Shown piece after piece: positions 10,407 through 24,831 of a stretch of 64,000 nucleotides of DNA. The notes beneath the pieces are model-generated. The model was not told where the DNA came from and ran no database searches. It saw only the letters and a list, made by a program, of their open reading frames with translations. Each line of letters opens with the position of its first letter. The first letter of the stretch is position 1. A program made the translations under genes and the position numbers. This DNA is from Nitrospira sp. Its GTDB lineage: Bacteria > Nitrospirota > Nitrospiria > Nitrospirales > Nitrospiraceae. The stretch spans positions 620,001 through 684,000 of the forward strand of contig JARFXR010000002.1 of NCBI GenBank assembly GCA_029194535.1. The letters are read 5' to 3'.

Positions 10407-12362
10407 CTACTTGAGCTTGGCAACGGGCTGCAAGCGAACCATCGCCCCTTGTCCCGGCGGCGGAATACACAGCGGCTCCTGTTCGTTTCCGAATCGTTCC
10501 CGCGCCGACTTGAACACCCGCCCTTTCGCATAGGTGCAGAGTTCTCCGGCGAGCACGGTGCCGTCCTGATCGACATCCGCCGCCCCTCCCAAGCCCTTCA
10601 GGATTTCATAGGTAAACAGCCCATGTTGTCCGAGATCATAGGGGTGGGCCTCCTGGACAGCGCGATTCCCCACCATCCACATGATTCGTTCCTTCCCCTC
10701 GCCCGCCTGCTCCCACAGCGGAGGCACCGGCTCCACCCCGTCTTTCATCGCCACCCGTTCGAGCGAGAGATCGAGGATGACGATGGCGCGCCCAATCGGC
10801 GACTTCACCAGCGCCTCGTGCAAACGCCTCAAGGAGTAGAGTCTTGCCACAGAGGACGGAGTGCCGTCGAACGGGACCACCGACACGGCGCCGGTCGAAG
10901 CTTCCACCACCCCACGGCCGGACAGGTAGACATACGCCACCGCGGCGGAGTCCGCTTGCTTAGGCAGCCACTCTTCGAAGACGTCTGTCAGATCTCCCTT
11001 TAGCGCGTGCGAATCCGTCAACCGCCGCACCCGATCCGGAGGAATGCCGACGACCCCCTGCCAATAGGCCGCCACGACCTCCGCGTCGTGGGCGGCATAC
11101 CTCACCCGCTGAAGCCCGTCTTCCCGGAACTGGCCGATCCCGATTGCGATGCCGACGGCCTTCGGTTGTTTGATCTTGACGGTCCGCTTGGGCAACTGGT
11201 CCACGTCCACCGGCACAGCCGTCGCCTCCGGCGCCGTGTCCGGCTTCATGGCCACCGCAAACTTCTTTGCGGAAGGCAGCCGGTCCGACGGGGAACGGCT
11301 CCGTAGGGTCAACACCAACTCGGCCTGGATCTCTTCTTTGACCGCTCCGATCTTCCCGTCCAACGACATGCGCTTCACCTCGCCGGCCGGAAGCTCGCCG
11401 ACCGCCAAGACACCGGGAATCTGCTCGATCAGCTCCGGCGTGCCGCTGACCAGAATCTCCACGCCGGCTGCGTCACCCGGTCCTTCGTTCTTGACCTCGA
11501 TCTCGACGGAAAGGGCCTCGCCTGTGTGGAGCAATTGGTTGCGATTTTCATCGCGGATGATCGCCCGAAACGTGATGGTCGCGGGCTCCGCGGCCGGACT
11601 CGACGGGGCAACCGCCGCAGCCGGTGCCGAAGGCTGCGCGGCGACCGCCCCCGCCTGGCCTGCCGTCGCTGCCAGAGGCGAAGGAGGGGCTGAAGACGAG
11701 GCCGGTGGAGATCCGGTGGAGGCCGCGGTGCCGGCCTTTCTGGCGTCGGCAAAGACGGCCAGCTTGCTTGAGGTACCGAGCTGCTTGGCCATCCCGTCCG
11801 TGACGTTGTTGACGGCCTCCCGGGCGACCGAATCCAACCCGGTGACGTCGCAAGACGTGTCGGTCGTTTCCACCTCTCCCTTTCCGAGACTTTTCAATTT
11901 CTTGTTGTAGAGCACGGTCCCGTCTGCCGTGGTAAACGCGAAATCGAGGCCGATCTCCACCGTCGCGGGGTAGGACTTATTCGCCTTCCGATAGGCGTTG
12001 ACGTTCGCTTCGGCCAGTCCGAGCGAGACATCCTCGTAACCGTCCACCGCCACGGCCGCCGGCTGGTCGAAGACGACCTTTTCGAACACGCGGCCGGACC
12101 TTCGCTTGATCGCCGCGGTCAGCATCTCGCCGAAAGGCAACACTTTGTCGGCGCCACAGGCATCTTGATAGGAGAGTCGGGCCTCCTCGATCGTCGGAGC
12201 CATTCTCACCTGGACCGTGAGCGGAAGGTAGTAGCCGGATCCAAGACCGTCGCGGGAGGCGAACAGACCGCAGGAGCTGAGGGAGAGCAGCGAGAGCCAT
12301 GCCAATACTTGCCCGGTCGCGCGCGGGAGGGATACCCACGGTTCTCGCTGTGCCAATCGCAC
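10407..12362 (-). CDS. Lipoprotein with caspase-fold (C14) domain lacking the catalytic dyad
   Basis: A 651-residue protein with a lipoprotein signal (LSLLSLSSC). Residues 40-200 form a domain around a tandem-lipoprotein-like core, followed by an Ala/Pro/Ser linker (about 205-262), a beta-rich domain like CARDB or DUF11 (about 263-370), and a caspase p20/p10 fold (about 395-640). In the caspase domain the usual SGHG is SGRG (about 481), so His is replaced by Arg, and the usual DxCHSG is LDLSLER (about 529), so Cys is lost. The surrounding fold (PFDG, GLFTYEILKGL, DQDGTVLAGEL) is kept. A non-catalytic scaffold or binding role in the envelope is inferred. The start codon is GTG with no clear ribosome site. 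Confidence 0.75.
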   Translation of the reverse strand: MRLAQREPWVSLPRATGQVLAWLSLLSLSSCGLFASRDGLGSGYYLPLTVQVRMAPTIEEARLSYQDACGADKVLPFGEMLTAAIKRRSGRVFEKVVFDQPAAVAVDGYEDVSLGLAEANVNAYRKANKSYPATVEIGLDFAFTTADGTVLYNKKLKSLGKGEVETTDTSCDVTGLDSVAREAVNNVTDGMAKQLGTSSKLAVFADARKAGTAASTGSPPASSSAPPSPLAATAGQAGAVAAQPSAPAAAVAPSSPAAEPATITFRAIIRDENRNQLLHTGEALSVEIEVKNEGPGDAAGVEILVSGTPELIEQIPGVLAVGELPAGEVKRMSLDGKIGAVKEEIQAELVLTLRSRSPSDRLPSAKKFAVAMKPDTAPEATAVPVDVDQLPKRTVKIKQPKAVGIAIGIGQFREDGLQRVRYAAHDAEVVAAYWQGVVGIPPDRVRRLTDSHALKGDLTDVFEEWLPKQADSAAVAYVYLSGRGVVEASTGAVSVVPFDGTPSSVARLYSLRRLHEALVKSPIGRAIVILDLSLERVAMKDGVEPVPPLWEQAGEGKERIMWMVGNRAVQEAHPYDLGQHGLFTYEILKGLGGAADVDQDGTVLAGELCTYAKGRVFKSARERFGNEQEPLCIPPPGQGAMVRLQPVAKLK

Positions 12363-12453: not shown

Positions 12454-13362
12454 ATGACTCCCTTGACCGACTGCCATCCCCAGCCGAACGCCGAACGTCA
12501 GGTGCCGCGGCTCTCGTGGTCCGCGGTCGCCCGCCTCATCCGCCTGCACAGCCAGACGGGAACATGGCTGTTGCTGCTGCCGACACTGTGGTCTCTCGTC
12601 CTGGCCGCCCGAGGTTTTCCTCCGGTGAGCTTGATCGTCATATTTTCTGCCGGTTCTTTCCTGATGCGGAGCGCGGGGGTCGTGCTCAATGACTTGGCGG
12701 ATCGAACCGTCGATCGGGAGGTGGCGAGGACAACTTCTCGACCGTTGGCCTCCGGAGAACTGTCGTTCCGCCATGCCTGCTTGCTGGCCAGTCTGCTGCT
12801 CGGTGCGGCGTCGGCCCTGGTCCTGACGCTCAATCAGCTGACGCTGCTGTTGAGCCCCGTCGCCGTGCTGTTGGCTGCCCTCTATCCGTTCGCCAAGCGG
12901 GTCGTCCATGTTCCGCAAGCGATACTGGGCCTCGCCTTCGGCTGGGGGACGATCATGGCCTGGGCCGCGTCACGCGGGGCGGTGGAGAGCCCGGCATGGC
13001 TGCTCTTCGGCGCCACGATCTGTTGGGCAATCGGCTACGACACCATCTATGCGCTGCAGGACCGGGAGGACGATCGGCGAATCGGGGTGAAATCCTCCGC
13101 GCTGTTCTTCGACCGATGGACCTGGCTCGCGGTGGCCACGTCGCTCGGGGGGATGTTGAGCTTCATGACGCTTGCCGGCCGGCTTACAGGGATTGGATGG
13201 AGCTACTACGCCTCGCTCGCTATCGCCGCCGGCCTGTTCGCCATACAGATTGTGGAATTGACGGGATCGATCTCGCCCGCGCGAGCCTTCACGCTGTTTC
13301 ATCGGCACGTGTGGATCGGGTCGGGAATTCTGGTCGGAATGCTCGCAGGATTTCTCTGGTGA
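12454..13362 (+). CDS. ubiA: UbiA-family prenyltransferase (4-hydroxybenzoate polyprenyltransferase-like)
   Basis: A 302-residue membrane protein with about eight helices. The two Asp-rich motifs of UbiA enzymes are present: NDLADRTVDR in the first half and YDTIYALQDREDD in the second. They bind the Mg-diphosphate of the prenyl donor. The typical RPLASGELS follows the first motif. UbiA attaches a polyprenyl chain to 4-hydroxybenzoate in ubiquinone synthesis; related enzymes act on other aromatics, and the substrate is not certain from sequence alone. It is placed beside the respiratory cluster on the opposite strand and ends 90 bp from the convergent cytochrome c gene, consistent with quinone supply but not linked as an operon. 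Confidence 0.85.
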   Translation: MTPLTDCHPQPNAERQVPRLSWSAVARLIRLHSQTGTWLLLLPTLWSLVLAARGFPPVSLIVIFSAGSFLMRSAGVVLNDLADRTVDREVARTTSRPLASGELSFRHACLLASLLLGAASALVLTLNQLTLLLSPVAVLLAALYPFAKRVVHVPQAILGLAFGWGTIMAWAASRGAVESPAWLLFGATICWAIGYDTIYALQDREDDRRIGVKSSALFFDRWTWLAVATSLGGMLSFMTLAGRLTGIGWSYYASLAIAAGLFAIQIVELTGSISPARAFTLFHRHVWIGSGILVGMLAGFLW

Positions 13363-13452: not shown

Positions 13453-14469
13453 TCAGCTGCCCGGCTTGTCGCTCGGAGGTTCGGTCTTCGGCGCACGCAA
13501 CGTGTTGAGGTACATGACCACGGCCTTGGCATCCGCGTCACTCAACCCCAGTGCCGGCATTCTGGTTTCCGGCTTCATGGCTTGCGGATTCTTCACCCAG
13601 CGATAGACCCACGTGCCGTTGAGACGGAAGCCCGCGCGATCCAATGCCGGACCGACCTTTCCGCCTTCCTCTGCGAGGCTGTGGCAACCGTTGCAGCCGT
13701 ATTTGTTTGCATACAAGTTCTTGCCGACCTCCGCCAACTTCGCGATCTGATCAGGCTTCACCGTCAAGTCCGGCCTCGGCACGTTGACGCCCTTACCGGG
13801 CCTGGTCGAGAAGTTGTTCAGCGCGACCTGTGCGTTGTCGAGATCCTTTTTCGCCTGGGTCATCGCGGCCTGTTCCTTCGCATAGGAGGACTCGTCGACA
13901 TCCACGTCCTTCTTCAATTGCGCGCTCTTTTTTTCAGCCTCGTCGCTCGCCTTCTTTTCGGCGGCATCGTAGGCTTGCTTGGCTTGATCGAACTTGGACT
14001 GCGCGGCTTGTAGCGCGTCTGCAAGTTCCTTCTTGCGTTCCTCGACTTTGAACTCCAGCTTCATGCCGTGCAGGGTGCGGACATAGCCCACGATGGCCCA
14101 GATTTCATCTTCCGAGAGCGTGTACTTGAACGTCGGCATGGTCGGGACGGCGAATTCGTCGTCGCCGATCTTGTCGCCGCCCGGACTCGTGTCCTTCATG
14201 TCGCGTGAAATGGTATTGAAGATATCCTCGTCCTTGAATGTTCCCATCTCGGATTTATTGGACAGGTCCTTCGGCTTGGGATCGGGCATGGAGGACCAGT
14301 TGAAGCCTTCGTTCTGACGGCCGTGTTCGCCGTGACAGTGCAGGCAGTAGTGGGCATAGAGCTCCTGCCCTTTCTTCTGCTGCTCGCTCGCGCATCCGCC
14401 GGCCACCAGAGCCCAGACCCCCATCAGGCCGGCCACCGCTCCCATGACTTGCAGCCTTGCCGACTTCAT
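13453..14469 (-). CDS. Dihaem c-type cytochrome lipoprotein with coiled-coil linker
   Basis: A 338-residue protein. The lipobox ends LVAGGC. Haem site 1 is CLHCH (Cys42, Cys45, His46) and site 2 is CNGCH (Cys259, Cys262, His263). Between the two cytochrome domains, residues 140-220 are a long Lys/Glu/Ala-rich helix with heptad character (KAYDAAEKKASDEAEKK-type), an unusual spacer that could span a distance between redox partners. The ATG at 14469 overlaps the stop of the upstream gene as ATGA. It is last in the respiratory cluster. Periplasmic, lipid-anchored electron carrier; partner unknown. Confidence 0.88.
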   Translation of the reverse strand: MKSARLQVMGAVAGLMGVWALVAGGCASEQQKKGQELYAHYCLHCHGEHGRQNEGFNWSSMPDPKPKDLSNKSEMGTFKDEDIFNTISRDMKDTSPGGDKIGDDEFAVPTMPTFKYTLSEDEIWAIVGYVRTLHGMKLEFKVEERKKELADALQAAQSKFDQAKQAYDAAEKKASDEAEKKSAQLKKDVDVDESSYAKEQAAMTQAKKDLDNAQVALNNFSTRPGKGVNVPRPDLTVKPDQIAKLAEVGKNLYANKYGCNGCHSLAEEGGKVGPALDRAGFRLNGTWVYRWVKNPQAMKPETRMPALGLSDADAKAVVMYLNTLRAPKTEPPSDKPGS

Positions 14470-15299
14470 GCTGACTGCCCTTTCTTGAGTTTTCGGATCA
14501 GGACGAACTGGAATCCAACGGCCAGCGCGATGGCCATCGCCGCGTAGAGATAGCCGGAATAGTCGGCGGGCGGCTCGGCTCGGAAATACCACCAGGACGA
14601 GACGGCCTTCTGCGACCCCTTCTCACGCAATTCTCCGCTCGCGTCCTTTTGTCCGTCCCAGACGGCGAACGCGATGTTGATGAATTCGCCGGGCTTCACC
14701 TGCGCGTCTTCGTCGGGATGCTCGGTCGCCAGCGGACGTGAAAACACCACCTTCCAGGTGCCGTTCGCATAGACGCCCTTGGCTTTGACATCCTGATGCG
14801 GTTGCGCCTTCAACGTGCCGAAGCCCATGGCGCTCATGTCGACGGCCTTGTTCTCTTTGTTCTTCCAGAACCAGATGTTGACCGGCCCCCCTTCGACCTG
14901 AGCCATCGGCTGGCCGTGCGCGAAGTGCGCCTTCTTGTCGCCGACCATGAATTCCAGGGCGGCCGCGTCGTCCGGATCCTGCGTGGGATCGGCATATTCC
15001 AGGAGAAACGCCACCTGCGTTCCATCGTGCAGCGCGCGAATCTTGACGTCTTTCACCGTCGCTTCCTGGATGCGGTTCTGCCAATGGACCTGCGGGGACA
15101 TCGGAAATTGCGAAACCGGTGCGCTGGTCCAGACGGCTGAGTCCGGATCTTCCGCCGGAAGCGTGCCCTTGACCATCGGAGCCCGTACCGCCACGCTTTC
15201 CTGGGCGAAACCTACCGTCGCGCCGCACAGGACCATGACGGCCGCAAGCAGCGCCGCCTCGCCCTTGTGCCACTGTGTCTTCCGCTTTGCCGATTTCAT
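14466..15299 (-). CDS. NxrC / ethylbenzene-dehydrogenase-gamma-like haem b protein with membrane anchor
   Basis: A 277-residue protein with a signal peptide (VMVLCGATVGFAQ) and a beta-rich domain of the type found in gamma subunits of type II DMSO reductases (ethylbenzene dehydrogenase, nitrite oxidoreductase NxrC), which bind a single haem b. Family hallmarks seen are VKIRALHDGTQVAFLLEY, a central AHGQPMAQ segment and the final KVVFSRPL and FAVWDG strands. A C-terminal transmembrane helix (about 249-270, YLYAAMAIALAVGFQFVLI) ties it to the membrane. The ATG at 15299 follows CGAGGACAGC. No nxrA or nxrB gene is near; here it sits among cytochromes, so it may relay electrons within this complex. 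Confidence 0.75.
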   Translation of the reverse strand: MKSAKRKTQWHKGEAALLAAVMVLCGATVGFAQESVAVRAPMVKGTLPAEDPDSAVWTSAPVSQFPMSPQVHWQNRIQEATVKDVKIRALHDGTQVAFLLEYADPTQDPDDAAALEFMVGDKKAHFAHGQPMAQVEGGPVNIWFWKNKENKAVDMSAMGFGTLKAQPHQDVKAKGVYANGTWKVVFSRPLATEHPDEDAQVKPGEFINIAFAVWDGQKDASGELREKGSQKAVSSWWYFRAEPPADYSGYLYAAMAIALAVGFQFVLIRKLKKGQSA

Positions 15300-15334
15300 G
15301 CTGTCCTCGTTTCGCGGCAGCCGGAGCCGCCGGT

Positions 15335-16054
15335 CTATTCCCAGGTACGAGGCGATTGATGCGCCCCGTCGTACTCGCCCATGATGATCTTCCAGATCCA
15401 TTCGTCCGGGAGCTCGACTTCCCAGCGCGGCATGGCGGACTTCCAGGGCATCCCTTCAATGGGAAGCCCCACCCCGCCCTTCTTGATGCGCCAGAACAAG
15501 TAGCTCTCCTGCAACATCGCGATCGTCGTCGGATCCGAAAAATTCGCCGGAGGCGGATTGAAGCCACGGGCCGCCGGTCCTTTGCCGTCGAATTGTCCCC
15601 CGTGACAGGGGGAGCAGAAGGCGGCATAAAAGCCCTTACCCTGCATGATGTTTTCCGGGGTCTTGGGAACCGGGTTCGACAAGCCCGTATACTCGCCGGG
15701 CGGAGCGGGGTGAATCGTCCGGTTCTCGGCAGGCGGCTGATCGCTCGGCGCCGTGCTGCCGTAGGTCTGCCATCCGACCAGGAGCGGAAAGAGAATGAGA
15801 ATGCCGTAGCGAAGCATCTGCAGCCCGCCGATGTTCTCTCCGGTCAGAAACCGCTGGATCGGCCCCCAAAATGCGTCCTTCGACTCTCCGCTGAGCGTCG
15901 CAAAAATCACGATCCCGGAACTCACCAGCATCAGATAGAGGAAAATGAGACTGGACGGCAGCGGAGCCGAGCCCGGCATGTTGGGCACGATGAACTTCAG
16001 CACCAGATAGACCGCGACCAGCAGGATGATTGGCTTGACCAGCGCCCCTCCCAT
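15335..16054 (-). CDS. Membrane-anchored monohaem cytochrome c
   Basis: A 239-residue protein. There are three hydrophobic N-terminal helices (about 7-24, 35-53 and 81-97), then a periplasmic cytochrome c domain with CSPCH (Cys147, Cys150, His151) and a downstream Met-containing GMPWKSAMP loop that could give the sixth ligand. It ends 35 bp upstream of the NxrC-like gene and starts 10 bp after the next upstream cytochrome gene, so these are co-transcribed. Predicted electron carrier fixed to the inner membrane beside the bd-like and b6-type proteins. Confidence 0.85.
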   Translation of the reverse strand: MGGALVKPIILLVAVYLVLKFIVPNMPGSAPLPSSLIFLYLMLVSSGIVIFATLSGESKDAFWGPIQRFLTGENIGGLQMLRYGILILFPLLVGWQTYGSTAPSDQPPAENRTIHPAPPGEYTGLSNPVPKTPENIMQGKGFYAAFCSPCHGGQFDGKGPAARGFNPPPANFSDPTTIAMLQESYLFWRIKKGGVGLPIEGMPWKSAMPRWEVELPDEWIWKIIMGEYDGAHQSPRTWE

Positions 16055-16063
16055 AATGCCTCC

Positions 16064-16687
16064 TCAGTGCGCTTTCGCGACGGCGACAGGATCCGATTCC
16101 CCGGCCTTGACGGGAGCCGCGGGAGCCTGTCCCGGCACTTCGAGTTCGGACGGATTTACGGAAATCGGTTCTCCGCTCATCTGCTGCAGGAACGCGATGA
16201 CGGACAGAATCTCATTTTTCGTCAGACCGATGGGATTCCGGTTGATATAGGGCATTCTCGCCGGATACTCCTTCGGCAGGCCCTCATGCCGATAGTCCAG
16301 ATAGATGTAGGCCTGCGGCTGCGTCAAGCTCTCGAAGATGAACTCCCGGCTCAGCTTGGCTCCGATTCCCTTGAGGTCCGGGCAACGGGCCGATTCGCTG
16401 GGGCCGATCGAGTGGCAGAGCGCGCACTGCCCCTTGCTGAAGAAGATCTTCTGGCCGATGGCCGCCATGTCCGTCGGGGTCTTGACGGTCGCGATGTCGA
16501 ATTTCTCTTCCGCGGGCGGCAACGAAGCCATTTGCGGAACGGCGAGCGCGACCAGCGAGAAGAGCCCGAGGACGATCGCCACGAACCCGATGACGCGGGC
16601 GAATTGCGCGCGGACAAAGAGCAGGATAACGATCCCCACCCCGACGACGCTCAGACCGATCAACTGCAGCTTGACTACTTCACTCAT
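16064..16687 (-). CDS. Membrane-anchored monohaem cytochrome c
   Basis: A 207-residue protein. Two N-terminal helices (about 8-26 and 31-51) are followed by a cytochrome c domain with CALCH (Cys88, Cys91, His92), a central RMPYIN segment that may supply the Met ligand, and a Pro/Ala-rich tail. It differs from the adjacent cytochrome in sequence and topology, so it is not a simple duplication. A conspicuous AT-rich inverted repeat lies between its start and the upstream oxidase gene and may reduce or modulate read-through. Confidence 0.85.
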   Translation of the reverse strand: MSEVVKLQLIGLSVVGVGIVILLFVRAQFARVIGFVAIVLGLFSLVALAVPQMASLPPAEEKFDIATVKTPTDMAAIGQKIFFSKGQCALCHSIGPSESARCPDLKGIGAKLSREFIFESLTQPQAYIYLDYRHEGLPKEYPARMPYINRNPIGLTKNEILSVIAFLQQMSGEPISVNPSELEVPGQAPAAPVKAGESDPVAVAKAH

Positions 16688-16711
16688 AGAGTCCCCGAAT
16701 TTTTAGTGTTT

Positions 16712-16752
16712 AGTTTTTAGTTCTCAGTTTTTCGAACTCAGAACTAAAAACT
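16712..16752 (-). repeat. AT-rich 13-bp inverted repeat inside the respiratory cluster
   Basis: AGTTTTTAGTTCT (16712-16724) pairs perfectly with AGAACTAAAAACT (16740-16752) around a 15-nt loop. Shorter AGTTTT-type copies flank it on both sides. It is far more AT-rich than its surroundings and lies between two genes of one transcription direction. Confidence 0.7.
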
Positions 16753-16770
16753 CAAAACTCGTCACTCTCA

Positions 16771-18624
16771 TCACCCGCGCTCCGAGTGATGAGGCGATCC
16801 GCCTGCCATCGCCGGCATACCGTGCGGCAACGCTCCTTTGGCCGCCTCGCCCTGTCCTCCGGCCTTGCCCTTGTCCCCCATCGTCGCGACCCAGAAGATG
16901 AAGGCCACGAGAAGACAGAACAAGAACGTGTTCAACGCCATGAAGGCCGCGGCATAGCCGAGGGCCGGAGAAAAGGCGTATTGAGACGAATCCCGCATGA
17001 CACCGTAGATGTGCCAGTGCACTCTGGAGGACGACCGGGCATAGCCCATCAGCGTCATGAGCAGGATGACCATCACCGCGTTCAAGACCAACGCGTAGCC
17101 CGCGCGCGGAGGCATGCGGCCCCATACCATTTCGGTGGTGGTCTTGGCGCTTTTCAGCAGGAGCGCGGTCAAGGGCGTGATCGTCAGCATGACGAACAGC
17201 ACGATGAGCACCTGCGAGGTCGAAAAGTAATTGATGCGGATGATCGCCGGCACGAAATAGCCCCATACGCCGAGTACGATTACGGCAATACCTGCAAGCA
17301 CGAGCACTCCACCCATGACCGACTTCGCCACCTTGGCCCACGTGGCCGTTTCCTGTTTTCCCGCCCGCCAATACATAATAAAACTCATGAATGTGACAAG
17401 AATCATGAGATTGGCCACCGTCATCTTGGCCGACATGACGCCGAACACCCCGAGCAGCGGATGGTGCGTGCCGCCCATTTTGCGGGCTTCTTCCAAGCTG
17501 GCGACGAGCGAGTGCGGTGTCATCCACACTCCCAAACACAGGAGCAGGATGACCAGCATCGTCATGATGGGTTTGCGGTACCTCATTTCCGAACCAGGGA
17601 TGCGGTGCGTAATACCGAGCCAGAAATAATAGTTGGAGCCAAGGAACAGAACCCCGATCAACATGGCCTGTAGAATAAACAGCCAGGAGAGGAATCCGCC
17701 CATCAGGGTGATGCCCATCTGCTGGTTGTATTGGTAGATTTCCCGCATCAGCCAATAGCCGGCGAACGGAAGGGGCAGCAGTCCGAAGACTCCGATGAAG
17801 TTGCCGACATAGCCCATCCAGTCGTAGTGGTCACGCTCTTCCGCATTCCGGGCCGCCAGATACCGGATGCCGGCGTAGGCGCCGCAAATGTACCCCCCGA
17901 GCACGACGTTGGCGATCAACCGGTGGATGTTCACGGGCCACCAGGTGGGATTCCAGGTGGCAGCCCAGGCGCGCTGCAGGTCCGTCCCTTCGGAGATCAC
18001 GACGGGGCTCGCTTGGAAGGTCGCCCAGGAATTGGGGACGATCATGATGAAAAACGCGAAAAGATTGAGCAGGAAACCGAGGAAAATATGAAACGTCTTC
18101 TTCCCGCCGTCCTGCATCGCATCCCAACCGTACCAGTAGAGGTACAGGGTCGCGGTCTCCAGCAGGAACAGGATGCAGTAGAAAATGAAGGAGGGGAAAA
18201 AGATATCCGTCAGGTAGTTCATCAACTTCGGGTAGAACGCGATGAGCAGGAACAAGAGGATGCCCCCGAACAGCGCCGTAGTCGCGTAGGAGGAGGTCAA
18301 CAGTTTGGTGAATTCCTTGGCCAGCTTATCGTACCGCTTTTCCCCGCTCTTCCAGCCGACGACTTCGCAGAGCCAGGCAAAAATCGGCACGCCTAACACG
18401 AAGCCGGCGAGCAGAAGATGGAGTTGCGCGATGACCCAGACGATGTTGCGGCTCCCGATGCCGGGTATGTCCCTGTACTCGGTCGCCGCCGCCGGAGTAT
18501 CCGCCGCGACCCCGAACGAAGGAAGGGCCAGGAGGCCCACGGCGACCATGAGCCCGGCGAGGACTCCGCGAAGACCACCGGTGGTCCGAAGGACCCGCTG
18601 AATCGATGCGCCGCCGAATTGCAT
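16771..18624 (-). CDS. Cytochrome bd-like oxidase subunit I (copy 1)
   Basis: A 617-residue membrane protein, longer than E. coli CydA (about 520). A signal-like segment (residues 20-41) is followed by about 13 transmembrane helices. CydA-type features are His69 in the first helix (AQLHLLLAGF), a helix-3 Glu (LLETATLYLY) and His234 (NIHRLIANV), consistent with haem ligands and the proton-path Glu of bd oxidases. The C-terminus is extended (Gly/Ala/His-rich). The ATG at 18624 is preceded by GAGGTGAGTGCC. No CydB-type partner is encoded nearby. Such bd-like proteins are known in Nitrospira, but whether this one reduces oxygen or handles quinol is not settled by sequence. Confidence 0.8.
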   Translation of the reverse strand: MQFGGASIQRVLRTTGGLRGVLAGLMVAVGLLALPSFGVAADTPAAATEYRDIPGIGSRNIVWVIAQLHLLLAGFVLGVPIFAWLCEVVGWKSGEKRYDKLAKEFTKLLTSSYATTALFGGILLFLLIAFYPKLMNYLTDIFFPSFIFYCILFLLETATLYLYWYGWDAMQDGGKKTFHIFLGFLLNLFAFFIMIVPNSWATFQASPVVISEGTDLQRAWAATWNPTWWPVNIHRLIANVVLGGYICGAYAGIRYLAARNAEERDHYDWMGYVGNFIGVFGLLPLPFAGYWLMREIYQYNQQMGITLMGGFLSWLFILQAMLIGVLFLGSNYYFWLGITHRIPGSEMRYRKPIMTMLVILLLCLGVWMTPHSLVASLEEARKMGGTHHPLLGVFGVMSAKMTVANLMILVTFMSFIMYWRAGKQETATWAKVAKSVMGGVLVLAGIAVIVLGVWGYFVPAIIRINYFSTSQVLIVLFVMLTITPLTALLLKSAKTTTEMVWGRMPPRAGYALVLNAVMVILLMTLMGYARSSSRVHWHIYGVMRDSSQYAFSPALGYAAAFMALNTFLFCLLVAFIFWVATMGDKGKAGGQGEAAKGALPHGMPAMAGGSPHHSERG

Positions 18625-18650
18625 GGCACTCACCTCATCTCTGGGAATCA

Positions 18651-19640
18651 TTACGGTTTCTTCGCAGGTGACGCGTCCTTGTCCTTCCCTGCCTTGCCTT
18701 TTGCTTTGCCTTTATCCGCTTCCGCTTCGGCCTTCTCGGTCTTCTGCTTTTCCAACGCGTCGACCTGTGCCGAGAGCTGGGCGATGACTTTTTCGTTCTT
18801 GGCCAAGCTCTCGAGCGGCCTCAAGGGCGGCTCGACCTTGACCTCCGGCTTCTTGCAGCATTCGTGAGGATGAGGAGTCGTAACGGGCAATGCCGCCCAG
18901 AACAGCACCGACAAGACCGCGCCGGCGCCGGTCAATGCCGTCAGCATCAAGCCCTGATCGGCCGGGACGCGCATCAAATCCCATCGCGTAATCAGCCCCT
19001 GGTAATTTTCTGAAACGGATGGGGTCGCCTGGGCCATGCCCCGGATCAATCGACCGACGAGGGACACGCCGATCAGCAACAGGATGATCAGTACCGCGCT
19101 CGCGACCGAGCCCCACAAGGCCAGCTCGATGCTGATCCGCTCGGCCACGGGTACCGCTTTCAGCAATTCCAGCTCCATGAGGGCATGCGCGATCGCAATG
19201 CTCGTCGAGGTGACGGCGCTCACGATCATCCAGAGAATCGGAAGGAACACCGCCCCGACCAGCGCGCTCTTCCACCAGAGCGTCATGCCCAGACTGTCCG
19301 GCGGCTCACGCCGGAGTCGTTCCAGGAAAAAGGTGCGGCCGACGACGCCGAGGGCCCAGATGTCGATGGGAATGGAGAGCAGGAACAGCAGACCGATTCC
19401 GGCGCCCTCGCCGATGTGCGAATCGAGCCCCATCGTAATGATCGGAAGGGCAAGAACCGTCACAGGGCTGGCCAGCAGCATGATGAACGCCAGGCCGAGG
19501 CGCCCTTCGAAATGCATCAAGCCCATGGCCAGGAACACCAGCACAAAGGCCAGCTTGAAGGGAAGCGCGGTCCAGAATGCCGGCCACAGGACCCCAAGCC
19601 CGATTTTCGTTGGAGACAAAGATTCGCGTTCGTCGGCCAT
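18651..19640 (-). CDS. Unknown membrane protein of the respiratory cluster
   Basis: A 329-residue protein with about six transmembrane helices in the first 255 residues and no haem-binding CxxCH. After the last helix comes [10 protein letters not shown] and then a coiled-coil-like, Lys/Ala/Glu-rich tail (about 270-329). The ATG at 19640 is chosen because upstream codons in the frame look non-coding. It lies between cytochrome b (24 bp) and the bd-like subunit (26 bp) on the same strand, so it is very likely part of the same complex or its assembly. It could be a scaffold or a divergent CydB-position subunit; I see no sequence motif to decide. Confidence 0.75.
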
Positions 19641-19663
19641 GGTAGCTCGTGGGACTGACAGGC

Positions 19664-20776
19664 TCAGTCCAAAAATTCCCGGTTGATGATGGCGGAGACT
19701 GTAAACAGCAGAATGGACACCATGACGACGATCCAGCCGATCAAGGCGATCGGACGCTTGAAGATATTGCGCTCCGGGTCCCTGTCGATGAAGGGCAAGG
19801 CGGCCAGCAAGGCCATGAAGGCCCCCGGCAAGGCGATGGCGCCCAGAAACTGTCCGAACTCCCCTGCGAAGATTTTCAGCCTGAGCAATTGGAACAGGAA
19901 CAGGAAGTACCACTCCGGCTCCGGATGGTAATCGCCGGGATCAGGGGTCGCCTCCTCAAGCAAGACCACCGGCTCCCAGAAGGCCAACGCACAGATACTG
20001 GCGAATACCACCGCCATCCCGACGATGTCCTTCCAGATTTGGCGGGGAAAGAAATAGTCCGTCTTCGCCTTGAGCTCTTCCGGGGTGCCCCGAAACGGCC
20101 CGGCCGGTCCCGCCGACCTGAAGAGGAACAGATGAAGCCCGGCAAGCCCCATCAAGGCGGCAGGCAGGATCATGACGTGAATAACGAAGAACCGGCTCAA
20201 GGTCATCTGTCCGGGGGTCGGCCCTCCCTTGAGAAAGCGCGCCATGAAATCGCCGAGGAGCGGCGTCTTGTCCATGATCTCCACGCCAACGGTCGTCGCC
20301 CAATACGCGCGCTGGTCCCAGGGCAACAGATAGCCGGTGAACCCGAACCCCATGACGATCCCGAAGAGAGCCAAACCGACCAGCCAAATCATTTCACGCG
20401 GGCTCTTATAGGCGCCCCAGAGAAACACCTGCGACATGTGCGCGAAGACACAGACGACCATCGCGGTCGAACCCCAGAAGTGATAGCTCAGAAGGAACCA
20501 GCCGTAATCGACGTCATGAATGATGTACTGGGTGCTGGCATAGGCGTGATCGGCGGTGGGGACGTAATAGAACATCAGCAGAATGCCGGTCACCGCCTGC
20601 ATGATGAAGATGAAGAGCAAGACCGATCCGAACACGTAGGCCCAGCGCGAACCGCCTGGAACCGGCTCGTTCAGCATCTTGGCCTGCAACTGCTTCAACC
20701 CGACGCGCTCGTCGATGAAGGCCACGACTTTTTCGATGGCGGTCGGCTGGCTGCTGGGTAGAGAGGAGTGTGCCAT
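19664..20776 (-). CDS. petB: Cytochrome b of a bc/b6f-type complex
   Basis: A 370-residue membrane protein carrying both N-terminal (haem) and C-terminal (subunit IV) halves. Haem ligands are His99/His113 (spacing 14) and His200/His215 (spacing 15); the 14/15 pattern is that of cytochrome b6, while bc1-type proteins use 14/14. The quinol-site PEWY motif is at 287-290. Gene fusion of both halves in one chain is like bc1, so the protein is a mixed type. It follows the Rieske gene by 2 nt, so the two are coupled. It would oxidise quinol, or run in reverse to reduce quinone, in the inner membrane. Confidence 0.93.
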
Positions 20777-20778
20777 GG

Positions 20779-21711
20779 TCAGATGATCCGGATTTGTGAT
20801 TTCGTGCCGGCCTTGAATTCCATATCGATGATTTGGACCTCCCCCCCCGCCGACACGCGGATCGGCAAGGCGTCCAGAGACCGGGGCGCCGGTCCATCGA
20901 GAACCTTTCCGGAGGCATCGTAGATGCTCAGATGGCAGGGACACAAGAAGACCTGTCCGAGCACCTTATGCTGCCGCCACTTGTACCCGCAACCGAGATG
21001 GGGACACTTGCCCGAGAAGGCGACGTAGGGAATCTCTTTCTTGTTGGTCCAGATCGGCTTGCCCAAGGCGTCGCGAAATTCCATGTCCTTGCCTTGATAA
21101 ACTTTCTCGAGGACGGCCGGCGTGCCTTTGAGAATCCAGACGTTCTTCTCGATCTCGGATTCCGGCATGTACGCTTCCTTGACCTTCTTCTTGTACTTGA
21201 ACTGGACCCCGATGTCGTCCTGTTTGATCTTGCCGATATTCCCGATGCTCAACCAGCCGTTGTCGAAGGGGGCATACATGGGCTTCATCAGGTAGCGCAG
21301 CACAGGAAAGGCGATCGGCAGCCCGATCAAAAAGCCGATCGCATGGGTGAAGTTCATGAAGAAGGTTCGGCGCTTGACGCTCTTCTCCAGTTCAGGAAGA
21401 GGGACCAGCACCTCGCCGGGAGTGACGTGGACACTATCCTCCAGATGAGGGATTTCGACTTCGTGATTGGTCACGTACTCGTCGCGCTTGAACGCCGGCA
21501 ACGCCACGACCTCGGAGGACGTGGTCCTCAACTGGACGGCGCCCTCCGTCACGCTCTGCACCTGGCCCATCGCCACCTGGCGTTCGCCGTGGCCGTTCAT
21601 GGACACGACGATGTGACTGATTTGGCGCGACAGCGGATCGACGATGACGCTCGCCACCTCTCCGACTTCGCGATCCGAGCAATGAACTTTCGACTTGAGT
21701 TTGGGCTGCAT
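20779..21711 (-). CDS. petC: Rieske iron-sulfur protein with N-terminal PRC-barrel-like domain
   Basis: A 310-residue protein. Residues 1-80 resemble a PRC-barrel (GEVASVIVDP, ISHIVVSMNG, then ALPAF). A single transmembrane helix lies at about 122-140 (AIGFLIGLPIAFPVLRYL), and the Rieske fold follows with CPHLGC (Cys236, His238, Cys241) and CPCH (Cys257, Cys259, His260) binding a [2Fe-2S] cluster. Typical Rieske subunits are under 200 residues and lack the N-terminal domain, which by topology would be cytoplasmic. It is coupled to cytochrome b (2 nt) and to the upstream cytochrome c (1 nt). Transfers electrons from quinol to cytochrome c. Confidence 0.92.
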   Translation of the reverse strand: MQPKLKSKVHCSDREVGEVASVIVDPLSRQISHIVVSMNGHGERQVAMGQVQSVTEGAVQLRTTSSEVVALPAFKRDEYVTNHEVEIPHLEDSVHVTPGEVLVPLPELEKSVKRRTFFMNFTHAIGFLIGLPIAFPVLRYLMKPMYAPFDNGWLSIGNIGKIKQDDIGVQFKYKKKVKEAYMPESEIEKNVWILKGTPAVLEKVYQGKDMEFRDALGKPIWTNKKEIPYVAFSGKCPHLGCGYKWRQHKVLGQVFLCPCHLSIYDASGKVLDGPAPRSLDALPIRVSAGGEVQIIDMEFKAGTKSQIRII

Positions 21712-21712
21712 G

Positions 21713-22519
21713 CTATTTTTTCTTGATCGGCTTCGGTGTATTGACCGAGGTGTTCTTGAAGGTGACCAACCAGGTCGCCAACGCCACGACGTCCTTTTCC
21801 TCCATCAGGTCCTTGTACTTGTCCGGCATCTTGCCCTTTTCATACTCCTTCTCGAAACCCTCGGCCATCCAGCTCTTGGGATCGAGAATCTTCTGCTTGA
21901 TCTCATCGGCCGACAGAAGATTACCGATGTTGTCGAGCTCGGGACCGCGCTTCTTTCCGCCTTCGCCGCGCAGCTTGTGGCAGTTGTAGCACTCCTGAAG
22001 CTGCCATTGGTCCTCACCGACTTTCAACACGTCACCCCCTGCCGCACCGGTCGTCGCCGGAGGCGCCCCGGGTCCGCCGGCGGACTGCGAGGCGGTGGCT
22101 TGATCCCCACCCAATGCCTTGATGCGCGCCGACAAGGCCTTGGCTTGCTCGTCGAGCGCCTTGGCTCTGGCTAGCAGCTCGTCGGCCTTCCCTTGCTCGG
22201 TCGCGGCCCGCTTGGGTTTTAGAATTTTTTCGATCTTCCCCTTCTCGTCCTCCGGATCGTACTGCGGCCAGAGCGAGGCGCCGGCGATGTAGACGACGCA
22301 AAGTACGACATAGAACCCCACCAGGGCGGCCAGCGCCTTCACACCGCTCAGGGGCTTGAGGGACGGAGCATCAAGCAAGATGAATACGGCCGTACCCAGC
22401 AGCGCATAGGCCGCGAACATCATTTGGAACACAGAGGGGAAGTCCAGCGCGTTCGTAATGCCGAACAACGCCCCCGCCACCACCAACCCGACCACTAGTT
22501 TCTTGATCACATTACCCAT
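21713..22519 (-). CDS. Membrane-anchored monohaem cytochrome c next to the Rieske gene
   Basis: A 268-residue protein. Three N-terminal helices (about 5-24, 31-50 and 60-82) are followed by an Ala/Lys/Glu coiled-coil stretch (95-138), a Gly/Pro linker, and a cytochrome c domain with CYNCH (Cys177, Cys180, His181). Its place directly before Rieske and cytochrome b suggests it is the cytochrome c1/f equivalent of this complex, although it is unrelated in layout to either. It shares the coiled-coil-plus-haem design with the dihaem cytochrome at the end of the cluster. Confidence 0.87.
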   Translation of the reverse strand: MGNVIKKLVVGLVVAGALFGITNALDFPSVFQMMFAAYALLGTAVFILLDAPSLKPLSGVKALAALVGFYVVLCVVYIAGASLWPQYDPEDEKGKIEKILKPKRAATEQGKADELLARAKALDEQAKALSARIKALGGDQATASQSAGGPGAPPATTGAAGGDVLKVGEDQWQLQECYNCHKLRGEGGKKRGPELDNIGNLLSADEIKQKILDPKSWMAEGFEKEYEKGKMPDKYKDLMEEKDVVALATWLVTFKNTSVNTPKPIKKK

Positions 22520-22558
22520 AAAAGCGGTCCTTTTCCGTTAGCAGGTCCTTCGATCAGT

Positions 22559-24262
22559 TCACTTCGCTCCCGCGGGCGCGGGGCTGCCTTCGGACACGTG
22601 CCCCTTGGCCTCTGTGGGTCTGAGCGTGACGAGAATGGCGAAACTGACGACGACGAAAAACGCGACGGTAATGCCCGTAATCCACCAGGCCGAGTAGGAC
22701 AACGTGGGGGTGAAGGATTCGGCCGTGAAGTCCGGCAGCAGATTGTAGGTGTGGAAATATTTCCGCAGCAACGAACGGACCGCGCCCATCAGGCCCATCG
22801 TCCAGATCGCGCTGAAGGCCAGGAACACCAGGACGAACTGGGACGCAAAATCGATCTTGCCCCACACGATCGTGCCCTGGTTGATCGCTCGATTATAGAT
22901 GATGTAGTTCACGATCGTGACGAACACCAACGTGAATGCCGCGGAGTTCTTCGCCGGCATGAGCGCGAGGAAATTCCAATCGGACGGAAGCTCCAGGTCG
23001 GCCACCAACTTGGCCCCGGTCGGCACGAACCCGTGCGGGGTGAGCCAGATCGCGTCGCCCACCACGACCATCAAAAATCCCACCTTGATCACCGTGCGAG
23101 AGGAGACGGTGATGGGGATGAACCGGCCGAGCACCATGGGCAGCAGGGCGAGAGGCACCAAAATCGCCAGCGACGTGGGATCGGGCACGGGGAAGATGGT
23201 CCAGACGTAGGTCATGACGAACGGAAGCGCCACCATCACGAGCGGAGCAAAGATGGTCATCCTCACCCGCTCCACCCCTTCGATCCGCTTCATGCTCAAC
23301 CAGATGTAGTAATTGCTGGCGAGGAAGATCAGCCCGACCATGGCGCCCTGCATCTCGAAGAACATCGACAGCTGGTCCGCCATCATGTAGGGACAAATCG
23401 AGGCGTCGTAGTCACACAATTCGTACGCCAACAGATAGCCCATGAACGGAAGAAACAGCAGCGCGCCGACACCGATCAAATTCCCGACAAAGCCCATCCA
23501 ATCGTAATACGACCGGTCTTCTTCCTTCTTGGACGCCATATACATGTAGGCCGCGACCAGTCCGGTGATGAATCCGCCGAACGTGACATTGCCGACGAGC
23601 CGGTGCAGATTCATCGGCATCCAGCTGTAGTTATAGATCTTGTCCCATAGCGTTGCCGTGGCCAGAAACTCGGCCGGTGAGACACCCTCTGCCTTGACCG
23701 GCGTGTTCATGAACGAGGTCGGTCCGTCGATCACGAACAGCGTGATGGTGCCGATCAGGTTGAGCAGCACTCCCAAGGCGATGTGGCGGGACTTCTTTGC
23801 TCCCTTCCAGGCATCCCACGAATAGAAGTACATGTAGAGGAGAATCGTCTCACCGATGAACAGGAGCGGATAAATGACGGCGAACAGCAGGAAGAAGTGA
23901 TTGATCAGCCACGTGGTGAATTGAGGATAGGTCGCCAACAGCACGAAGATGAACAGTCCGCCGGTGAGGGCCGTCATGCTGTAGAGGATGACGGTGACCT
24001 TCATGACCTCCTTGGCCAGGCGATCATAGCGTGGGTCCTGCTTGCGATACCCCAGCCATTCGGACGTCACGACAAAGATAGGAGCGCCCAGGATGAAGGC
24101 GGCGAACAGGATGTGCAATTGCGCGACGATCCACACGGCGGTCCGGTTCCCCGTATACGGAAACTCCACCGGCGGAGCGCCCGGGGCCTGTGCGTAGGCG
24201 ACGCCTCCGCACAGCGCTAGAAGCGCAAAGAAGGCCAACAGACCTCGCTGCCATGTTTTCAT
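22559..24262 (-). CDS. Cytochrome bd-like oxidase subunit I (copy 2)
   Basis: A 567-residue paralogue of the protein at 16771-18624. A signal peptide (LLALCGGVAYAQ) is followed by about 12 to 13 helices. The same marks are kept: His50 in helix 1 (AQLHILFAAF), a helix-3 Glu (FIGETILLYMY), His220 (NLHRLVGNV) and a shared YYDWMGFVGNLIGV segment. A loop with ELCDYDASICPYM adds two cysteines that copy 1 lacks (copy 1 reads EIYQYN). The ATG at 24262 begins the signal peptide. It lies between two cytochrome c genes, upstream of the Rieske/cytochrome b pair. Two divergent bd-like subunits in one locus suggest a complex containing both, or two alternative modules. Confidence 0.8.
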   Translation of the reverse strand: MKTWQRGLLAFFALLALCGGVAYAQAPGAPPVEFPYTGNRTAVWIVAQLHILFAAFILGAPIFVVTSEWLGYRKQDPRYDRLAKEVMKVTVILYSMTALTGGLFIFVLLATYPQFTTWLINHFFLLFAVIYPLLFIGETILLYMYFYSWDAWKGAKKSRHIALGVLLNLIGTITLFVIDGPTSFMNTPVKAEGVSPAEFLATATLWDKIYNYSWMPMNLHRLVGNVTFGGFITGLVAAYMYMASKKEEDRSYYDWMGFVGNLIGVGALLFLPFMGYLLAYELCDYDASICPYMMADQLSMFFEMQGAMVGLIFLASNYYIWLSMKRIEGVERVRMTIFAPLVMVALPFVMTYVWTIFPVPDPTSLAILVPLALLPMVLGRFIPITVSSRTVIKVGFLMVVVGDAIWLTPHGFVPTGAKLVADLELPSDWNFLALMPAKNSAAFTLVFVTIVNYIIYNRAINQGTIVWGKIDFASQFVLVFLAFSAIWTMGLMGAVRSLLRKYFHTYNLLPDFTAESFTPTLSYSAWWITGITVAFFVVVSFAILVTLRPTEAKGHVSEGSPAPAGAK

Positions 24263-24315
24263 GATGCTCGCCGCCCTCCTCACCGTTCCGAGTGTTCGAT
24301 CCAGCCGAAGTCCGT

Positions 24316-24831
24316 TTACTTGGCTGCGTCGGCCGCCGCGACCTTGATCTCGCCGGAGTCCGCCCACTGTTTCTTGTCGGCGTCCCATGTCTTGCCGGCG
24401 AGGCCGAAACTCCTCTCGAAGAGCACGAGCTTCCAACGGTCTTCATCGGAGAGCTTGCTCTTCCAGGCCTTCATCTTCGTATTGGGCACCCCCTCCGAGA
24501 TACGCCAGAACCAGACGGAATCGGAATACAGCTTCATCCGTTCGCCGTTACGGAAGTCGCGGGCGCCGGCCTTAACGGGCTTCCCGTCTTTGCCGTGGCA
24601 GCTTGCGCAATTCACGTCGGGGTTCGTCTCACCGATAAACAATTTTCGTCCCTCTTCCACTTTCCCGGCGTCGGTCCACCAGCCGGCCGGCATGTGCTTG
24701 TCCGCATACTCGGCAGGAGCCGGAGGAGGAGGCACGACCGGTCCTTCCCCGCCGCCTTCTCCACCGCATGCGGCAACCAGCAGCCCCATGGCGAACAGAA
24801 TCCCCGCCTGTCCGATTTTCATCTGCTTCAT
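24316..24831 (-). CDS. Monohaem cytochrome c lipoprotein
   Basis: A 171-residue protein. The lipobox ends LLVAAC (Cys22), followed by a flexible Gly/Pro linker and a cytochrome c domain with CASCH (Cys75, Cys78, His79). A later Met-containing segment (VPNTKMKAW) may provide the axial ligand. It is the first gene of the leftward respiratory cluster, 53 bp before bd-like copy 2; an AGGAG lies a little far upstream of the ATG. A lipid-anchored periplasmic electron carrier feeding or draining the complex. Confidence 0.87.
   Translation of the reverse strand: MKQMKIGQAGILFAMGLLVAACGGEGGGEGPVVPPPPAPAEYADKHMPAGWWTDAGKVEEGRKLFIGETNPDVNCASCHGKDGKPVKAGARDFRNGERMKLYSDSVWFWRISEGVPNTKMKAWKSKLSDEDRWKLVLFERSFGLAGKTWDADKKQWADSGEIKVAAADAAK

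Follow-up and report, generated by a model that had tools for sequence, protein, structure and literature searches.

A conserved Nitrospirales gene cluster joining bc-type and cytochrome bd-like proteins, with two modules of apparently separate descent

An eleven-gene cluster that joins bc-type genes to genes for two cytochrome bd-like proteins, CydA1 and CydA2, is fixed in gene order across the Nitrospirales and two further families of the class, and comparison of its proteins with their relatives shows, at the level of sequence, that it consists of two modules of separate descent, module A (cA, CydA1 and cB) and module B (CydA2, cC, cD, an NxrC-like protein and cc). We studied the cluster in a window of 64 kb (the whole stretch of DNA that was analysed, C2:620001-684000) within a 3.98 Mb Nitrospira sp. 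genome. Our preferred explanation, to which we give a probability of roughly 55%, is that this is the complex III and terminal-oxidase locus of the Nitrospirales, in which CydA2 would be the oxidase and the bc proteins with CydA1 would provide the link to quinone. Nitrospira, to which the comammox bacteria belong, is one of the major groups of nitrite oxidisers, and its terminal oxidase has been proposed in the literature from genomes and transcripts only. The comparison of relatives splits the question, with CydA2 and its fused cytochrome c as the candidate oxidase and CydA1 as a candidate quinone-side subunit, and this modular reading narrows which bd-like protein likely reduces oxygen.

Gene content and layout of the cluster

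The cluster occupies positions 13453-24831 of the window and, as the original prediction had it, comprises eleven open frames on a single strand (minus), running from cA (24831) to cc (13453), the family of every gene agreeing with the profile scans. The encoded proteins are a Rieske protein, a cytochrome b, two CydA-like proteins, five c-type cytochromes, an NxrC-like protein and one membrane protein without an assigned family:

24316..24831, minus strand: cA, mono-haem cytochrome c with lipoprotein-like N-terminus, module A (Cytochrome_CBB3 1.2e-8; one CxxCH; syntenic)
22559..24262, minus strand: CydA1, bd-like protein, 567 aa, module A (Cyt_bd_oxida_I 4.2e-16, first half only)
21713..22519, minus strand: cB, membrane-anchored mono-haem cytochrome c, module A (Cytochrom_C 7.7e-9; one CxxCH)
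20779..21711, minus strand: Rieske iron-sulphur protein with N-terminal PRC-barrel-like domain (Rieske 3.7e-9; CPHLGC and CPCH motifs)
19664..20776, minus strand: cytochrome b, fused b6/subunit-IV type, 370 aa (PF00033, PF00032; b6 model 8e-63)
18651..19640, minus strand: membrane protein, 329 aa (no Pfam or NCBIfam family; no fold match)
16771..18624, minus strand: CydA2, bd-like, putative terminal oxidase, 617 aa, module B (Cyt_bd_oxida_I 5.1e-14)
16064..16687, minus strand: cC, membrane-anchored mono-haem cytochrome c, module B (Cytochrom_C 1.2e-7)
15335..16054, minus strand: cD, membrane-anchored mono-haem cytochrome c, module B (Cytochrome_CBB3 2.1e-7; syntenic)
14466..15299, minus strand: NxrC-like haem-b protein (alt_NxrC_1 type), 277 aa, module B (EB_dh)
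13453..14469, minus strand: cc, di-haem cytochrome c, lipoprotein-like, 338 aa, module B (two Cytochrome_CBB3 stretches, 8.7e-19; two CxxCH)

Given that the spacing between the eleven genes is -4 to +83 bp, the cluster looks like a single transcription unit; promoter-like sites in the region did not exceed the number expected by chance, and terminator-like sites were little above it. The six haems predicted for the five c-type cytochromes agree with the CxxCH counts (1+1+1+1+2). The absence of CydB from the cluster was likewise borne out, since the only CydB of the genome is at C2:548820, in a canonical CydAB outside the cluster (C2:548820-551150). No haem-copper oxidase had been predicted, and this held genome-wide: the one COX1 match scored 30.4 bits against a threshold of 34.8 and was rejected as a candidate for such an oxidase elsewhere in the genome.

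The genome further contains two nxrA-like genes, a piece of one of which matched the solved nitrite oxidoreductase subunit A at 1e-181, and three cytochrome b loci, i.e., two besides the cluster. The bd-like_3/4 region (C1:1103914-1116637, L041) holds two more CydA-like genes, cytochromes and a 596-aa di-haem NxrC-like protein; the part with the module B-like layout described below spans C1:1105220-1116637. Downstream of the cluster, as judged by eye, lie a UbiA-like prenyltransferase frame on the plus strand (window 12454-13362) and a 651-aa caspase-like-looking protein on the minus strand (window 10407-12362).

Bc proteins, NxrC-like protein and membrane protein

The cytochrome b matched the N-terminal Pfam family at 1.4e-47 and the C-terminal family at 6e-9, and its haem histidines (99/113 and 200/215) together with PEWY at position 287 are features of a quinol site. 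Four haem histidines, PEWY and the Rieske cluster motifs, the set looked for in a bc/b6f-type pair, were all found, and the Rieske residues C236, H238, C257 and H260 were invariant in the family alignment. The PRC-barrel-like domain of the Rieske protein precedes its membrane helix, and PF05239 matched 18 of 30 family members (best 7.3e-5). The NxrC-like protein matched EB_dh above cut-off (about 2.3e-24 to 3.8e-24), and scored 114 bits (5.3e-33) with TIGR03477 against a curated cut-off of 169.85. For the 329-aa membrane protein, no Pfam or NCBIfam family was matched, and its AlphaFold model (pLDDT 77) had no PDB fold match under E 0.9. It is made up of a multi-helix N-terminal part specific to the Nitrospirales and an older single-helix C-terminal part. 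Two other families of the class have the C-terminal part only, as a separate protein of 91-126 aa (L064, 9761-10036; L065, 9662-10042); on this comparison the protein seems to have grown from its C-terminal part.

Conservation of gene order and relation to the known locus

The loss of synteny in most relatives that had been named as a danger to the original prediction did not appear, and gene order was kept. The eleven genes were found in the same order on one strand in 28 Nitrospirales loci (L044-L063, L066-L073), with two exceptions: L062 is cut off by its contig end ahead of the last gene, and an insert is present in L046. Two loci from two other families of the class (L064, L065) have the same order, but with a short protein in place of the 329-aa one. 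The order CydA1, Rieske, cytochrome b, CydA2 was seen in 55 of the 80 named loci found by CydA1, read in those 55 as far as the retrieved DNA goes, with the last gene outside the flank taken. The chromosomes of N. moscoviensis (L106) and Ca. N. defluvii (L130) share the gene order of the window. The 329-aa membrane protein was present in 168 of 175 family genomes and in 113 of the 114 good ones; loss of the cluster from the missing good genome (G199) was rejected, the contig breaking inside the cluster. In a MAG labelled Nitrospinota (L131, JADFRB010000117.1), CydA1 is nested among those of the Nitrospirales, through binning contamination or transfer.

The cluster in the window adds one more copy of a locus that is already known. 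Its N. moscoviensis counterpart, as given in Mundinger 2019 (PMC6606698), consists of complex III_1, bd-like_1, bd-like_2 and alt_nxrC_1, the same set as in the window with no essential difference, and that paper also proposes a III-IV supercomplex. The joint architecture, which the original prediction had held to be the point of interest, was therefore rejected as a novelty. According to the same paper, alt_nxrC_1 is separated from the putative complex IV by two cytochrome genes, bd-like_2 has a copper-like site, and transcription of the locus is strong while nitrite is being oxidised, with very weak expression of the canonical CydAB on nitrite. From this description and a histidine pair discussed below, CydA1 is probably bd-like_1 and CydA2 bd-like_2; the NIDE0901 type, matched through its literature description and the same pair, is probably CydA2. 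Modular origin, fusions and the PRC-like domain are not described in the available portion of that paper. Provisionally, since several key papers lie outside the comparison, we found no account in the papers compared of the modular descent, of the molybdoenzyme-linked CydA1 units or of the Mrp-bearing variants set out below.

Separate descent of the two bd-like proteins

In a maximum-likelihood tree of 47 proteins, CydA1 and CydA2 fell into two clades, each supported at 100/100, and the bd-like_3/4 paralogues of the same genome grouped with CydA2. Relatives of CydA1 from beyond the class share their operons with genes for a molybdopterin oxidoreductase and a 4Fe-4S subunit, and many of these operons include a TorD-like frame as well (L086, L087 and L088; L100 of Nitrospinota; and L171 of Deltaproteobacteria, where an NrfD-like protein also seems present). 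Only a few such loci, most of them from MAGs, make up this sample. In these loci cA and cB are separate or fused (fused in L086 and L088), and the CydA1-like protein and its cytochromes appear as if they were the membrane partner of the molybdoenzyme. At a further locus (L119), CydA1, cB and cA are present on a contig too short to reveal a molybdoenzyme. Some MAGs of other phyla, the majority of them groundwater-derived, also encode CydA1-like proteins (L151, L152, L154 and L169, Pseudomonadota/Acidobacteria; L166, L167, L172 and L173, Chloroflexi); some of the genes lie near radical-SAM and universal-stress-like frames, and bc genes were not found.

Each bd-like protein also occurs without the other. 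One genome (G203, 94% complete) has CydA1 and no CydA2 orthologue, and the genomes of four families (f5, f8, f9 and f10) have CydA2 with cytochromes and the NxrC-like protein and no CydA1 orthologue. In f5, f8 and one f10 copy, CydA2 is fused to cC (about 775-836 aa). Among all loci compared, cC is joined to the C-terminus of CydA2 in L076, L078-L082, L046 and L178, the last two being from the window's own family; when an oxidase-like protein and a cytochrome c form one polypeptide, the sequence itself is direct evidence that they work together. The bd-like_3/4 set with alt_NxrC_2, which is conserved in anammox bacteria and Nitrospina, has the same CydA-like, cytochrome, cytochrome, NxrC-like layout as module B, but lacks bc genes.

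Haem-site residues and fold of CydA1 and CydA2

The Cyt_bd_oxida_I match spans only profile positions 3-243 of 418 in both proteins, and places CydA1, on sequence grounds, in the cytochrome bd superfamily. The haem-region residues of the canonical CydA of the same genome, which we take to be His19, Glu107 and His186 in E. coli numbering, correspond in the alignment to H50/E138/H220 in CydA1 and to H69/E156/H234 in CydA2. All six positions were invariant save for one CydA2 row at E156 (42/43); H69, H234, H371, H387, H388 and H538 of CydA2 were present in 43 of 43 rows, and further residues, including CydA2 H179 and H538, were invariant in nearly all bd-like rows. The His-His pair at 387-388 is thus found in every CydA2 row and in one relative on the CydA2 side (L094); in the paralogues of the same genome, bd-like_3/4, it is replaced by QH, and CydA1 has neither. 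The pair fits, without proving, the proposed copper site of bd-like_2. The Q-loop/GRQPW region and the equivalent of Met393 had no counterpart in the alignment for CydA1 or CydA2, and loss of the quinol site in bd-like oxidases has been reported (PMC3578206). Compared with the canonical CydAB, the bd-like proteins of the cluster share the CydA fold (CydA2 by its model, CydA1 by sequence) and the haem-region His/Glu/His, but the C-terminal half, with the Q-loop region, is unaligned and CydB is lacking.

A single-chain model of CydA2 (pLDDT 75) matched CydA structures with Z scores of 22-26 over about 350 residues (best match: Foldseek 1.2e-8; Z 25.7 over 348 residues, rmsd 3.5), confirming, at the level of a predicted model, that CydA2 has the CydA fold. 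Matches of the model to ActF/ActC and PsrC were lower (Z 14-18), and this resemblance may stem from a common helical arrangement.

Proposed function and alternatives

We propose that a periplasmic nitrite oxidoreductase would feed electrons to the cytochromes c, from which module B would hand them to the haems of CydA2 for the reduction of O2; CydA2 would oxidise cytochrome c, having the bd fold as its scaffold but no quinol site. The link between these cytochromes c and the quinone pool would be made by module A together with the Rieske protein and cytochrome b. Given potentials of about +0.43 V for nitrite, +0.82 V for O2 and about +0.1 V for quinone (PMC9040806), the quinone branch would run uphill at the expense of the proton motive force and supply electrons for CO2 fixation, and would run downhill when donors are of low potential. 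The 329-aa membrane protein, whose gene separates the bc genes from CydA2, may hold the two halves together. The evidence that we count in favour comprises the conserved order and tight spacing, the two clades, the CydA2-cC fusion without CydA1, CydA1 without CydA2 beside a molybdoenzyme, the His-His pair, the missing Q-loop, the want of a haem-copper oxidase, the CydA fold of CydA2, the canonical haem-site residues in both proteins, the quinol-site features of cytochrome b and the strong transcription of the N. moscoviensis locus on nitrite. CydA1 would more probably serve in electron transfer or on the quinone side than as another oxidase. Against our explanation, CydA1 retains all of the family-wide haem-site residues, so an O2 site may exist there as well; and the two further cytochrome b loci and the canonical CydAB could carry the same fluxes. 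A narrower form of the proposal, a branched machine that splits the electrons of nitrite between CydA2 (downhill to O2) and the bc proteins with CydA1 (uphill to quinone), with CydA1 as a non-oxidase bd-fold subunit that elsewhere partners molybdoenzymes in the membrane, we consider unlikely as a whole.

A different division of labour, which we hold to be possible and clearly less probable than our own, would make CydA1 and CydA2 a single heterodimeric CydAA' oxidase fed by cytochrome c, after the manner of CydA-CydB and archaeal CydAA', with the bc genes merely adjacent. The OR-N types of cytochrome bd were reportedly defined in Murali 2021. Their members are CydA-like, lack the quinol loop and are thought to use cytochrome c, in all of which they resemble, by description, the proteins of the window. 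A CydAA' of OR-N1 and OR-N2 has been proposed as the oxidase of Nitrospirales and Nitrospinota (PMC12342949, PMC10839748), and both proteins always occur together in families having the full cluster. Unlike an obligate pair, CydA1 and CydA2 can each occur in a genome that lacks the other, as f5, f8, f9, f10 and G203 show, although a singly occurring CydA1 or CydA2 could pair with other paralogues.

Doubtful to about the same degree is that no joint complex forms at all, the bc proteins, a CydA1 unit and a CydA2 oxidase being separate enzymes of a co-regulated operon linked by diffusing cytochrome c; this concerns assembly only and is compatible with the roles that we propose. Gene order speaks for co-regulation rather than co-assembly, which counts against our explanation, and each module exists apart elsewhere. 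However, co-regulation alone does not usually require that the order of eleven genes be kept exactly in two families and further afield, and co-assembly as one supercomplex is, on this sequence evidence, the likely prediction. The composite complex of the original prediction stands in part: a gene set joining quinone, cytochrome c and oxygen fits the conserved order, but the two bd-like proteins are not an inseparable pair, because they form two clades, each found elsewhere without the other.

It is improbable that the whole locus works mainly in reverse, as an energy-driven cytochrome c to quinone reductase with O2 reduced elsewhere, e.g., by CydAB: bd-like proteins have been suggested to serve reverse flow in the manner of an alternative complex III (PMC3578206) and the CydA2 model resembles ActF/ActC and PsrC, but middling Z scores are expected among helical folds, N. 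moscoviensis on nitrite strongly expresses this locus and only very weakly CydAB (PMC6606698), and without CydA2 or a paralogue the organism would have no oxidase at the level of cytochrome c.

Variants carrying Mrp-like genes

The TO_2 set of Ca. Manganitrophaceae, given as restricted to that family (PMC9040806), combines a bd-like protein, cytochromes and cytochrome b as in the window, and differs in having two MrpD-like subunits; no Mrp-like genes were matched within the 64-kb window. Two genomes of the window's own family do have such genes in the cluster. In L046 (G165:C79, 10527-17036), a fused CydA2-cC, a pair of Proton_antipo_M proteins (Mrp/NuoL-like antiporter subunits), a small protein of 80 aa and a divergent cD stand where CydA2 to cD would otherwise lie, and in L178 (G351:C332, 4235-10766) a Proton_antipo_M pair lies between the membrane protein without family and the CydA2-cC fusion. 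Both assemblies are fragmented, yet on each contig native cluster genes flank the insert on both sides. The f5 and f8 loci also carry a Proton_antipo_M pair, and these variants suggest that the respiratory unit can couple to ion pumps outside the manganese oxidisers.
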